DNA from: Actinokineospora bangkokensis
GTDB lineage: Bacteria; Actinomycetota; Actinomycetes; Mycobacteriales; Pseudonocardiaceae
Assembly (NCBI RefSeq): GCF_001940455.1
Contig: NZ_MKQR01000009.1
Coordinates: 186,754 to 250,753 of the forward strand
Reading direction: 5' to 3'
Length of the DNA stretch: 64,000 nt
The notes beneath the pieces are model-generated. The model was given only the letters and a program-made list of their open reading frames with translations. It was not told the DNA's origin and ran no database searches. A program made the position numbers and the translations under genes. Numbering within the stretch: position 1 is the stretch's first letter; every line of letters begins with the position of its first letter. Below, piece by piece: positions 38,138 through 44,100 of the stretch.

Positions 38138-41100
38138 ATGCAGAACGAGGACAAGCTTCGCGATTACCTCAAGCGGGCGACCACCGACCTGCGCGGTGCC
38201 CGCAAGCGGGTCCGCGAGCTGGAGGCCCGCGACACCGAGCCGATCGCCATCGTCGGCATGGCCTGCCGCTTCCCCGGCGGGGTGCGCTCGCCGGAGGACC
38301 TGTGGGCGCTGGTGACCGAGGGCCGCGACGCGGTGTCCGGGTTCCCCACCGACCGGGGCTGGGACCTCGACGCGCTCTACGACCCGGACCCGGACAAGCC
38401 CGGCACGGTCTACACCCGCGAGGGCGGGTTCCTGCACGACGCCGCCGACTTCGACCCCGGGTTCTTCGGGATCAACCCGCGCGAGGCGCTGGCGATGGAC
38501 CCCCAGCAGCGGCTGCTGCTGGAGACCGCGTGGGAGGCCTTCGAGCGGGCGGGCATCGACCCGACCGGGCTGGCGGGCAGCCGCACCGGCGTGTTCACCG
38601 GCGTGATGTACCACGACTACGCCTCGCGGCTGCACGCCTTCCCCGAGCACGTCGAGGGCCTGCTGAGCACGGGCAACTCCGGGTCGGTGGCCTCCGGGCG
38701 CATCGCCTACACCCTGGGCCTGGAGGGCCCGGCGGTCACCGTCGACACCGCCTGCTCGTCCTCGCTCGTCGCCCTGCACATGGCCGTGCAGGCGCTGCGG
38801 GCCGGGGAGTGCACCATGGCGCTCGCCGGTGGTGTGACGGTGATGGCGGGGCCGAGCGCGTTCGTCGAGTTCGCCCGCCAGCGCGGCCTGGCCCCCGACG
38901 CCCGCACCAAGGCGTTCGCCGAGGGCGCCGACGGCGCGACCTGGGCCGAGGGCGTCGGCCTGCTGCTGGTGGAGAAGCTGTCCGACGCCCGCCGCAACGG
39001 CCACGAGGTGCTGGCCGTCGTGCGCGGCTCCGCGGTCAACTCCGACGGCGCCTCCAACGGGCTCACCGCGCCCAACGGCCCGTCGCAGCAGCGCGCCATC
39101 CTGGCCGCGCTGGGCTCGGCCCGGCTGGGCCCCGGTGACGTCGACGTCGTCGAGGCGCACGGCACCGGCACCCCGCTGGGCGACCCCATCGAGGCCCAGG
39201 CGCTGCTGGCCACCTACGGCCAGGGCGACCGCGCGCACCCGCTGCTGCTGGGCTCGGTGAAGTCCAACATCGGCCACACCCAGGCCGCCGCCGGTGTCGC
39301 CGGTGTGATCAAGGTGGTGCAGGCGATCCGGCACGGCGTCGTGCCCCGCACCCTGCACGCGGCCACGCCCTCCAGCAAGGTCGACTGGGAGTCCGGCGCG
39401 GTCGAGCTGGTGCAGGACGAGACCGCGTGGCCGCGGACCGGGCGCCCGCGCCGGGCCGCGGTGTCGTCGTTCGGCATCTCCGGCACCAACGCGCACACCA
39501 TCATCGAGCAGGCGCCCGAGCCGGAGCCGGTCGAGGACGCCGAGACCCCGCAGGTCGTCGAGGAGGTCCGCCCGCTCGCCGTGGTGCCGTGGGTGCTCTC
39601 CGGCCGCACCGCGCCCGCCCTGCGCGCCCAGGCCGCCCGCCTGCTGTCCGCTGTGGACGCCGGTGCGTCCGCTGTGGACCTGGGCTTCTCGCTGGCCACC
39701 ACGCGCGCAGCCCTGGACCACCGCGCCGTCGTCACCGGGGGCGACCTGGCGTCGCTGACCGAGGGCCTGTCCGCGTTCGTCGCGGGTGAGCGGCACCCGT
39801 CGGTGGTCGAGGGCCAGGCCACCGCCGAGGGGCGCGTGGCGTTCCTGTTCTCCGGCCAGGGTTCCCAGCGGCCCGGCATGGGGCGCGAGCTGCACGAGGC
39901 GTACCCGGTGTTCGCGGAGGCGTTCGACGCCGCGTGCGAGCACCTGCCCGAGGGCCTGCGCGAGGTCGTCTTCGCCGACGACGCCCCCGAGCTGCGGCAG
40001 ACGGGGTGGACCCAGCCCGCGCTGTTCGCGATCGAGGTCGCGCTGTTCCGCCTGCTGGAGTCGTGGGGTGTCAAGCCGGATTACCTGGCCGGTCATTCCA
40101 TCGGTGAGATCGCCGCCGCGCACGTGGCGGGTGTGCTGTCGCTGGCTGACGCGGCCAAGCTGGTGTCGGAGCGAGCCCGTTTGATGCAGGCGTTGCCCAC
40201 GGGTGGCGCGATGGTCGCTGTGCAGGCGACCGAGGACGAGGTCACCCCGCTGCTGTCGGAGACCGTCAGCATCGCCGCGATCAACGGTCCGCAGTCCATC
40301 GTGGTCGCTGGTGCGGAGGCCGAGGCCGAGCGGATCGGCGCGCACTTCACGGGCCTGGGGCGCAAGACGACCCGGTTGACGGTGTCGCACGCCTTCCACT
40401 CCCCGCTGATGGAGCCGATGCTGGAGGAGTTCCGCGCGGTCGTGCGCGGCCTGTCCTTCACCGAGCCCACCACCCCCCTCATCACCGGCGGCGACGTCAC
40501 CGACCCCGAGCACTGGGTGCGCCACGTCCGCGACGCCGTGCGCTTCGCCGACACCGTGCGCACCCTGCACGACCGCGGCGTCCGCACCACCGTCGAGATC
40601 GGCCCCGGCTCGGTGCTGACCGCCCTGGCCCGGCAGAACGCCGACGACCTGACCGCCGTGGCGCCGCTGCGCGCCGACCGCCCGGAGACCGGCGCCCTCG
40701 CCCGCCTGCACACCGCGGGCGTGCGGGTCGACGCCCCGGCCTACTTCGCCCGCTCCGGCGCGCGCCGGGTCGACCTGCCCACCTACGCCTTCCAGTACGA
40801 GCGGTTCTGGCTGGAGGCCCCGGCGGGCACCGGCGACGTCTCCGCCGCGGGCCTGGGCTCGGCCGACCACCCGCTGCTCGGCGCCGCCACCGCGCTGGCC
40901 GACGCCGACGGCTTCCTGCTCACCGGCCGCCTGTCCACCGCCACCCACCCGTGGCTGGCCGACCACACCGTCGGCGGCACCGCCGTGCTGCCCACCGCGG
41001 CCTTCGCCGAGCTGGCGATCCGCGCGGGCGACCACGTCGGCTGCGCCACGCTGGCGGAGCTGTCCGTGCAGACCCCGCTGGCCCTGCCCGACGGCGGCGC

Positions 41101-44100
41101 CGCGGTCGTCCAGGTCGCGCTCGGCGCCCCGGACGCCGAGGGCCGCCGCCCGCTCAGCGTGCACTCCCGGCTGGCCGACGCCGCCCAGGACGCCCCGTGG
41201 ACCCGGCACGCCACCGGCGTGCTCGCCCCCGCCGTGCGCTCCGGCGGCCCCGGCCTGGTCGAGTGGCCCCCGGCGGGCGCCGTCGCCGTGGACCCCACCG
41301 CCACCGCCGCGCGCGCCACCGCCGCCGGGGTCGCCCTCGGGCCGGTGTTCGACGGCCTGCGCGCCGCCTGGCGCCGGGGCGACGACCTGTTCGCCGAGGT
41401 CGCGCTGGACACCGAGGCCGCCGCCGACGCCGCGGCCTACGGCCTGCACCCCGCCCTGCTCGACGCCGCCCTGCGCGTGGCCCAGTACGCCGCCGACGTC
41501 GAGCCGGGCGCGCACCGGTTCGCCGCGGGCTGGGCCGAGGTCACCCTGCACGCCTCCGGCGCCACGCACCTGCGCGTGGCCCTGCCCGCCGCCGGTGGCG
41601 CGCTGCTGGCCGACGCCGAGGGCAGCGCGGTCGCCAGCATCGGATCGCTGTCGTTCGCGGAGGTCTCCGCCGCCGCGCTGGGCGCCTCCGCCGTCGGCGA
41701 CGCCCTCTACGCGGTGGAGTGGGTCGAGCTGCCCACCGCGGGCACCGCCGACGCCGAGCCGATCGCCTCGGTGACCGTGGACTCGGTGCCAGCGGCCCTC
41801 GACGCCGTCCAGCGGTGGTTGTCCGACGCGGACACCGCCGCCCGGCAGCTGGCCGTCCTCACCCGCGGCGCCATCGCCGCCGTGCCCGGCGAGCCCGTCC
41901 CGGCCCTCGACGCCGCGGGCGTGTGGGGCCTGCTGCGCGCCGCCCGCACCGAGCACCCCGGCCTGCTCGTCGTCGGGGACGTGGCGCAGGACGCCGACCC
42001 CGCCGCCGTCGAGGCCGCGCTGCGCAGCGGCGAGCCGCAGTTCGCCGTGCGCGGCACCACCGTCCTGGTGCCGCGGCTGGTCGCGGTGCGCCCGGAGGAG
42101 GGCACCGCGCCCGAGCGGTTCGCCGCCGACGCCACCGTCCTGGTCACCGGTGGCACCGGCGCCCTCGGCGGGCTGCTGGCCCGCCACCTCATCACCGCCC
42201 GCGGCGCCCGCCACCTGGTGCTCACCTCGCGCCGCGGTCTGGCCGCCCCGGGCGCCGCCGAGCTGCGCGACGAGCTGACCGCCCTCGGCGCCCGGGTCGA
42301 GGTCGCCGCCTGCGACGCCGCCGACCGCGCCGCCCTGGCCGCCCTGCTCGACGGGCTGGCCCAGCCGCTCACCGCCGTCTACCACGCCGCCGCCGTCGTC
42401 GACGGCGGTGTCGTCACCGGGCTCGGCGCCGAGGCGCTGGAGCGGGTGCTCGCCGCCAAGGCCACCGCCGCCCGCCACCTCGACGAGCTGACCCGCGACC
42501 GCCCGCTCACCGAGTTCGTGCTGTTCTCCTCGCTCGCCGGTGTCCTCGGCGGCGCGGGCCAGGGCGCCTACGCCGCCGCGAACTCCGCCCTGGACGCCCT
42601 CGCCCAGGACCGGCGGGCCGCGGGCCTGCCCGCGCACTCGCTGGCCTGGGGCCTGTGGGACGCCCGCGGCGAGCAGACCACCCTCGACCGCGCCGAGCTG
42701 GAGCGGATGGCCCGCACCGGCGTGCTGCCGCTGACCGCCGAGCAGGCCCTCGCCCTGCTGGACCTGTCCGTGGCCACCGACGCCGCGCTGCTCGTGCCCG
42801 CCCGCCTCGACCCGGGCGCGGCCGCCGGGCACGGCGAGGTGTCGCCGCTGCTGGCCGGCCTGCTGCGCGGCCGGGGCAGGCGCACCGCCGCGTCCGCCGC
42901 CACCGGCGGCCTGGAGCGGCAGCTGCTCGCCCTGGCCCCGGCCGACCGGGTGGCGCCGGTGCTCGACGTCGTGCGGCGCGAGGTCGTCGCCGTGCTCACC
43001 CTGTCCTCGGCGGACGCGGTCGAGGCCACCAGCGCCTTCAAGGACCTGGGCTTCGACTCGCTGACGGCGATGGAGCTGCGCAACCGGCTCGCCGCCGCCA
43101 CCGGGCTCACCCTGCCCGCCACCCTCACCTTCGACTTCCCCACCCCGACCGCCCTGGCCGCGCACCTGGTGGCCGAGCTCGTGGGCGACCGGGCCCAGGA
43201 GGTGCCCACCCGGCTGGTCGCCGCCGACGACGACCCGGTGGTCATCGTGGGCATGGCCTGCCACTTCCCCGGCGGGGCCGACTCGCCGGAGGCGCTGTGG
43301 CGGCTGGTCGCCGACGGCGTGGACGCGGTGGCGGGCATGCCCACCGACCGCGGCTGGGACCTCGACGCCATCTACGACCCCGACCCCGAGGTCAGCGGCA
43401 CCACCTACGTCCGCGAGGGCGCCTTCCTGGCCCGCGCGGCCGAGTTCGACGCGGAGTTCTTCGGCGTCTCCCCGCGCGAGGCCGTCGCCATGGACCCCCA
43501 GCAGCGCCTGCTGCTGGAGACCTCGTGGGAGGCCTTCGAGCGCGCGGGCATCGACCCGGCCGCCGCGCGCGGCAGCCGCACCGGCGTGTTCGTCGGCACC
43601 AACGGCCAGGACTACGCGACCCTGCTGGCCCAGGGCGGCAAGGACGTCGAGGCGCACCTGGTCACCGGCACCAACGCCGCGGTGGTGTCCGGGCGCATCT
43701 CCTACACCTTCGGCTTCGAGGGCCCGGCGGTCACCGTCGACACCGCGTGCTCGTCGTCGCTGGTCGCCCTGCACCTGGCCGCGCAGGCGCTGCGCGCCGG
43801 GGAGTGCGACCTGGCGCTGGCCGGTGGCGTGACGGTCATGACCACGCCCAACTCCTACATCGGCTTCTCCCGCCAGCGCGGGCTGGCCACCGACGGCCGG
43901 GTCAAGGCCTTCGCCGAGGCCGCCGACGGCACCGCCTGGGGCGAGGGCGTCGGCCTGCTGCTCGTCGAGCGGCTGTCCGACGCGCGCCGCAACGGCCACA
44001 CCGTGCTCGCGGTCGTCAAGGGCTCCGCGGTCAACCAGGACGGCGCCTCCAACGGCCTCACCGCGCCCAACGGGCCCGCCCAGCAGCGCGTGATCCGCCA

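Follow-up and report, generated by a model that had tools for sequence, protein, structure and literature searches.

We analysed a 64,000-nucleotide window of the Actinokineospora bangkokensis genome (contig 9, bases 186754-250753) that spans most of the thailandin polyketide synthase (PKS), and found that the dehydratase (DH) domain of module 7, DH7 of the protein ThaBIII, is degenerate and very probably silent. Our explanation as a whole, to which we assign a probability of roughly 0.93, is that module 7 is a former double-bond module in which the hydroxyl made by its ketoreductase (KR), KR7, is not removed by DH7, and that the five double bonds of the product come from modules 2-6. By this route KR7 would reduce the C15 ketone to a hydroxyl that DH7 would leave in place; module 8 would then receive a chain carrying C15-OH, and conjugation would not extend beyond five double bonds. 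The likely defect is that the 3-hydroxyacyl substrate can no longer be bound or oriented, given the loss of the YGP Tyr, the DxxxH His/Gln, LPFxW and PGTAF. We infer that DH7 would have no turnover in vivo, that it would go back to a sixth polyene module that worked, and that it would be retained for a structural reason.

Results

DH7 retains the catalytic dyad and has lost four other motifs

Both halves of a dehydratase were recognised in ThaBIII above the profile cut-offs (PKS_DH_N, PF21089, residues 911-1011, 40868-41170; PS-DH, PF14765, residues 1038-1178, 41249-41671). With the PS-DH profile DH7 scored 54.9 bits, the lowest of the six DHs in the window, the other five scoring 80.1-89.3 bits. 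Genome-wide there were 30 PS-DH matches, four of which scored near DH7 or below (30.9-57.8 bits; G000 C6:41631-42089, C6:53613-54011, C11:385016-385438 and C17:260739-261098); these may be silent or belong to another type of DH.

The catalytic dyad of a working DH, the His of HxxxGxxxxP and an Asp, is present in DH7 as H943 and D1109. The remaining elements that a working DH carries, the YGP Tyr, the terminal His/Gln of DxxxH/Q and LPFxW, are replaced by Leu1067, DAALR and HRFAAGW. An alignment of ThaBIII reproduced all of the module 7 motifs (H943, D1109 in DAALR, LGP, HRFAAGW and PTAAF) that an earlier, sequence-only reading of the window had reported. The start at 40867 given there was wrong, since the coding frame runs from 40868 and translation from 40867 gives an Arg/Pro-rich sequence that is not a PKS. 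The same reading had given HxxxGxxxxP, YGP, DxxxH and LPFxW as kept in all of the module 2-6 DHs. The His, Tyr-Gly, DxxxH and LPFxW are indeed present in all five, DH2-DH6, but YGP is not universal (YGA in DH5) and PGTAF also varies (PGAAF in DH5, PGTAL in DH3). Since the product has a double bond at the position of DH5 despite its YGA and PGAAF, a missing YGP Pro cannot serve as a diagnostic sign. This Pro is also replaced in two module 2-6 DHs of related clusters, as YGQ in module 5 of S. hiroshimensis and YGR in module 4 of S. xantholiticus.

Filipin carries a hydroxyl position at C15, and the sequence-only reading had likened the expected product to it. The product is thailandin and not filipin, but oxygen at C15 is as reported: five double bonds are conjugated in thailandins, and C15 bears rhamnose in thailandin A and a hydroxyl in thailandin B (PMC6273641). 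A working DH7 had been predicted to give a hexaene; the UV maxima of thailandin A at 325, 340 and 358 nm are those of a pentaene (PMC6273641). DH7 has in fact already been called apparently inactive, given the C15 hydroxyl, and three of its four motif failures have been named (PMC6273641). A silent DH7 is thus already known and ordinary, and our family comparison is a modest extension: the main text, appendix, legends and tables of PMC6273641 make no mention of the PGTAF change, of DH7 in relatives, of selection or of the type of KR7. Apart from this paper we found no description of DH7 loss in filipin-type PKSs among the titles and abstract openings listed from the openly available literature, a scope that leaves aside the original S. 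avermitilis filipin papers; the excerpts of PMC4527110, PMC10819995 and PMC10974182 held nothing bearing on it.

Module 7 dehydratases of related clusters are more damaged

We carried out the comparison with module 7 of filipin-type PKSs that had been suggested beforehand, and the module 7 DH was degenerate in all 14 relatives (the filipin type of the Streptomyces clusters being assigned from module order, as products are not named in the records). The YGP segment is missing from every one of the 14; thailandin DH7, with Leu for Tyr, is the only one of 15 to retain it. A 62-row tally of 50 DHs from modules 2-6 and 12 from module 7, drawn from 12 clusters, compared the two groups motif by motif. 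The catalytic His was present in 50/50 module 2-6 DHs versus 9/12 module 7 DHs, the YGP Tyr in 50/50 versus 0/12, the catalytic Asp in 50/50 versus 8/12, and the terminal His of DxxxH in 50/50 versus 0/12. The module 7 DHs of genomes G630, G669 and G240, which stand outside the tally and the tree, have likewise lost both the YGP segment and the His that ends DxxxH; in one of the three the Asp is missing as well. Altogether 8 of 15 module 7 DHs have lost a dyad residue, His or Asp (7 of the 12 in the tally, plus G669). All 15 are in open frames, and of these domains that of thailandin shows less damage than those of the relatives.

The relatives fall into two patterns. The Streptomyces filipin-type clusters resemble thailandin in the position of the module 7 DH after the polyene DH modules, in the lost DxxxH His and in PxAAF. 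They differ in a single 15-residue deletion that removes YGP (opposite ThaBIII 1056-1070; common to the 10 aligned Streptomyces-type module 7 DHs, with G630 and G669 alike), in the absence from some of the catalytic His or Asp, and in a KR7 with LDD. Their module 7 open frame, where whole, is about 1800-2340 amino acids long, against 7685 for ThaBIII. Saccharothrix yanglingensis and G240 share the VDGG loop of KR7 with thailandin, and in the tree the S. yanglingensis DH7 is the closest neighbour of thailandin DH7; they differ from thailandin in a 42-residue deletion over YGP and the following stretch (1054-1095 in S. yanglingensis, with which G240 aligns gap-free there). In S. pyxinae DH5 (L078:17204-18328) a low-complexity insert rich in Gly and Ala separates DxxxH from LPFxW.

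A tree of the DHs grouped the thailandin and S. yanglingensis module 7 DHs together (support 99/97) and the ten Streptomyces-type module 7 DHs together (100/100) on a long branch (1.09). The PxAAF and the lost DxxxH His common to module 7 DHs would fit a common start, and the two deletion sizes would fit separate later losses. To one fuller history we give about even odds. The pentaene length of the whole filipin/thailandin family would have been set by silencing of a sixth polyene module and not by module number. An ancestral module 7, with KR and DH of the double-bond type, would first have lost the PGTAF Gly, DxxxH His and YGP Tyr. Two or more independent deletions would then have removed the YGP segment (Streptomyces, 15 residues; Saccharothrix, 42), leaving thailandin least damaged; the dead domain would have been retained as the module needs its fold.

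KR7 groups with the ketoreductases of dehydrating modules

A quick tree was built from 37 KRs of five clusters. It placed KR7 among the KRs of DH modules (28 rows; Shimodaira-Hasegawa-like approximate likelihood ratio support 96), whereas KR1 and the W-type KR8-KR11, in which the A-type Trp is present, lay outside this group. By this grouping module 7 has the look of a polyene module of the past. An excerpt of PMC11228615 describes LDD as marking B-type KRs and as conserved where a KR is paired with an E-type DH. Among relatives the KR7 loop reads LDD in 12 Streptomyces-type clusters and VDGG in two Saccharothrix-type clusters. Judged from its sequence, module 7 would still supply a hydroxyl for a DH to act on, and the part that stops would be DH7. 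Two neighbouring KRs deserve mention: KR8 (47009) has an intact Ser-Tyr-Asn and the A-type Trp, whereas the C9-C13 ring proposal of PMC6273641 needs KR8 to be silent, and KR1 (11729) combines the LDD motif with the Trp motif, so that its stereochemical type is unreadable from motifs.

Alternative explanations, predicted fold and selection

Several observations weigh against a silent DH7 descended from a polyene DH. In the best tree the twelve module 7 DHs fail to form a single clade (2 changes), though they do so in 42% of bootstraps; a single module 7 clade is not rejected (p-AU 0.503), and long branches are involved. In identity, DH7 is no closer to the nine Streptomyces-type module 7 DHs compared (42-45%) than to the module 2-6 DHs (43-51%), the Saccharothrix module 7 DH standing at 51%. 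The published inactivity was inferred from product structure and motifs (PMC6273641). Thailandin KR7 has VDG, without the second Asp of LDD, so its stereochemical type rests on grouping and not on the motif. The catalytic dyad is intact. Lastly, the AlphaFold model, a check that had also been suggested beforehand, predicted a complete DH fold for DH7 with a mean confidence (pLDDT) of 90.5, equal to that of the DH6 control (90.5).

The last two points would also be expected of a DH7 that is active, with the C15 hydroxyl spared because module 8 takes the chain before dehydration, or restored by rehydration of the alkene; the excerpted PMC6006980 offers a precedent in reedsmycin, where a DH that appears active is believed to be skipped. 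With four other motifs broken, including a Tyr reported essential elsewhere, and the YGP segment missing at the same position in 14/14 relatives, we consider this very improbable. Slightly less probable still is a repurposed DH7, for instance one that helps to form the C9-C13 tetrahydropyran. The origin of that ring is left open in PMC6273641, thailandin DH7 is less decayed than its counterparts, and the ambruticin dehydratase-cyclase 5o15 is near the DH7 model (VIA-align Z 35.7). Yet other dehydratases lie in the same range, and the best matches are to crystallised PKS dehydratases: 6obv, the fluvirucin B1 DH and also the nearest solved chain by sequence (E 5.2e-60), matched with Z 37.7 (root mean square deviation 1.4 over 261 residues; for the DH6 control, Z 40.0), and 3el6 with Z 33.6. 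A shared fold shows no function, and by the usual carbon numbering most ring carbons would be added after module 7. We rejected DH7 as a tetrahydropyran cyclase, specific support being lacking.

A further alternative is that DH7 drifts freely without constraint, a remnant awaiting loss. Deletions of two different sizes would fit such drift, as would the ratio of nonsynonymous to synonymous substitution rates (dN/dS) of DH7 in six Streptomyces-type clusters, which was raised (median 0.42, range 0.28-0.52, versus 0.25-0.31 for DH2-DH6) and the highest in 11/15 pairs; these pairs share lineages and are not independent. The six are those of the 10 Streptomyces-type clusters left after exclusion of cinnamoneus, morookaense, pyxinae and misionensis as incomplete or divergent, with module 2 available in 5. 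All of these ratios are nevertheless below 1, all 15 module 7 DHs lie in open frames, and in one close Saccharothrix-type pair the DH7 value of 0.26 falls within the DH4-DH6 range of 0.24-0.49; free drift is thus unlikely. Constraint on DH7 is relaxed in Streptomyces and still present. Because the predicted fold is kept and the relatives are under purifying selection, DH7 is probably retained as a structural part. The earlier description of DH7 as the decay of an unused enzyme is accordingly no more than half correct, being at odds with the predicted fold and with the purifying selection on relatives. Its observation of a degenerate DH7 was real and needed small corrections. Its interpretation, in which the C15 hydroxyl survives and the polyene stops at five double bonds through the silence of DH7, is supported by the proposal of PMC6273641, by the pentaene product and by the more broken DH7 of relatives.

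The window, the cluster and the sample of relatives

The draft genome of A. bangkokensis 44EHW comprises 7,453,713 nucleotides in 32 scaffolds (PMC6273641). Two open reading frames of the window, of 7524 (4973-27547) and 7685 (38138-61195) amino acids, are as long as thaBI and thaBIII in the table of PMC6273641, and the open frame between them, ending at 38099, fits ThaBII (3501 amino acids; its start at 27597 is derived from that published length). Parts of the published disruption primers were found in ThaBI at 9965-9982 and 13019-13035 (one mismatch), and these positions agree with the reported 3087 bp fragment once the forward primer's 11-base tail and the 5 bases at the end of the reverse primer are counted in. 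The forward part has a second match at 45185, and the reverse part also matches at 17996 with two mismatches. Since lengths and primer sites match the thailandin PKS, the finding concerns module 7 of that PKS.

This PKS has one loading and 13 extension modules (PMC6273641), the last of which extend beyond the window. Five DH modules, 2-6, precede module 7, and only the sixth of the six window DHs is degenerate, as in a filipin-type pentaene PKS. AT6 has the methylmalonyl-type motifs GHSQG/YASH, as against GHSIG/HAFH in the 12 remaining ATs with a match in the window. The features taken to define the filipin type (five DH modules, AT6 type, 13 extension modules) are in part general background and otherwise from PMC6273641. 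Coordinates are collected in Table 1.

Table 1. Dehydratases, DH7 motifs and associated features in window coordinates.
Feature	Position	Strand	Evidence
DH2, ThaBI, motifs intact	14993..15844	+	profile match, motifs
DH3, ThaBI, motifs intact (PGTAL)	19964..20821	+	profile match, motifs
DH4, ThaBI, motifs intact	24941..25798	+	profile match, motifs
DH5, ThaBII, YGA and PGAAF, rest intact	30324..31208	+	profile match, motifs
DH6, ThaBII, motifs intact; structural control	35418..36299	+	profile match, motifs, model
ThaBIII open reading frame, 7685 aa, thailandin PKS modules 7-11	38138..61195	+	open reading frame; length equals thaBIII in PMC6273641; Pfam docking, KS, AT, DH, KR, ACP
DH7, degenerate dehydratase with predicted intact double-hotdog fold, residues 911-1190	40868..41707	+	Pfam, AlphaFold model, VIA-align
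10-residue motif with catalytic His943, kept	40964..40993	+	translation, alignment
PTAAF replacing PGTAF, from residue 952	40991..41005	+	alignment; G kept in 50/50 module 2-6 DHs, 0/12 module 7 DHs
ALGPVF, Leu1067 replacing YGP Tyr	41333..41350	+	alignment; segment missing in 14/14 relatives
DAALR, catalytic Asp1109 kept, terminal His/Gln of DxxxH/Q lost	41462..41476	+	alignment
HRFAAGW (from residue 1126) replacing LPFxW	41513..41533	+	alignment
KR7 core, residues 1328-1517: catalytic Tyr1478 kept, VVDGG replacing LDD, no Trp	42119..42688	+	motifs, tree

As the sole query for the family, DH7 failed to distinguish orthologues. It matched in 168 of 297 genomes, with 8 candidates scored in each, and many of the matches were other PKS DHs at 46-56% identity. 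We instead used the cluster P450 ThaOI, which gave 48 loci, of which 11 at 63-71% identity were kept and the other 37 (49% or less) were set aside. Against 392 Streptomyces genomes ThaOI gave 6 matches, four already in the set and two, G630 and G669, that were added. Against 390 genomes of the window's family it gave 7, namely the window itself, G143 (with the same coordinates as S. yanglingensis), G240, which was added, and four at 47-49% that were set aside. DHs were taken in assembly-line order, for a total of 15 module 7 DHs including thailandin; that of G240, not listed by hmmsearch, was taken from its alignment to S. yanglingensis.

The module 7 DH and the P450 share a contig in 10/14 relatives; in the fragmented xantholiticus, misionensis, cinnamoneus and morookaense assemblies the DH lies on a separate contig and was assigned by sequence and neighbours. 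Modules missing from the 62 rows are cinnamoneus 2-4, morookaense 2, 3 and 6, xantholiticus 2, one of misionensis 2/3, and yanglingensis 2 and 3. The row misionensis_M3 is named by position, and the tree places it among module 2 DHs. At S. misionensis L074:968-7174 the first DH groups with module 2 and module 4 comes directly after, with a run of N elsewhere in L074 (14166-14445); module 3 seems to be missing, which would mean a shorter polyene or a collapsed assembly. Four DHs of a different Saccharothrix PKS (C54, L077) are present in the alignments A1/A2 behind the structure predictions and absent from the 62-row tally and the DH tree.

Discussion

Silent dehydratases are common and have been described in other systems. 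According to the excerpted PMC7489565, DH5 of tetromadurin MadAIII is inactive for want of the YGP Tyr; binding of the hydroxyl is the role proposed there for this residue, and experiments are said to have shown that it is essential. This DH is like thailandin DH7 in being called silent after loss of that Tyr, with a hydroxyl left in the product, and unlike it in belonging to a polyether tetronate pathway, in another position and compound class. In one data set in the excerpted PMC11228615, an inactive DH stands beside 17% of actinobacterial gamma-module KRs.

A silent DH7 explains the stop at five double bonds and the C15 oxygen, the rhamnose site of thailandin A, in thailandin and probably in its relatives too. 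The comparison shows one silent domain in successive degrees of damage, beginning with an intact dyad and ending with a 42-residue loss, a series that is useful for predicting silent DHs, and since thailandin DH7 keeps HxxxGxxxxP, this motif alone misleads as a marker of activity.

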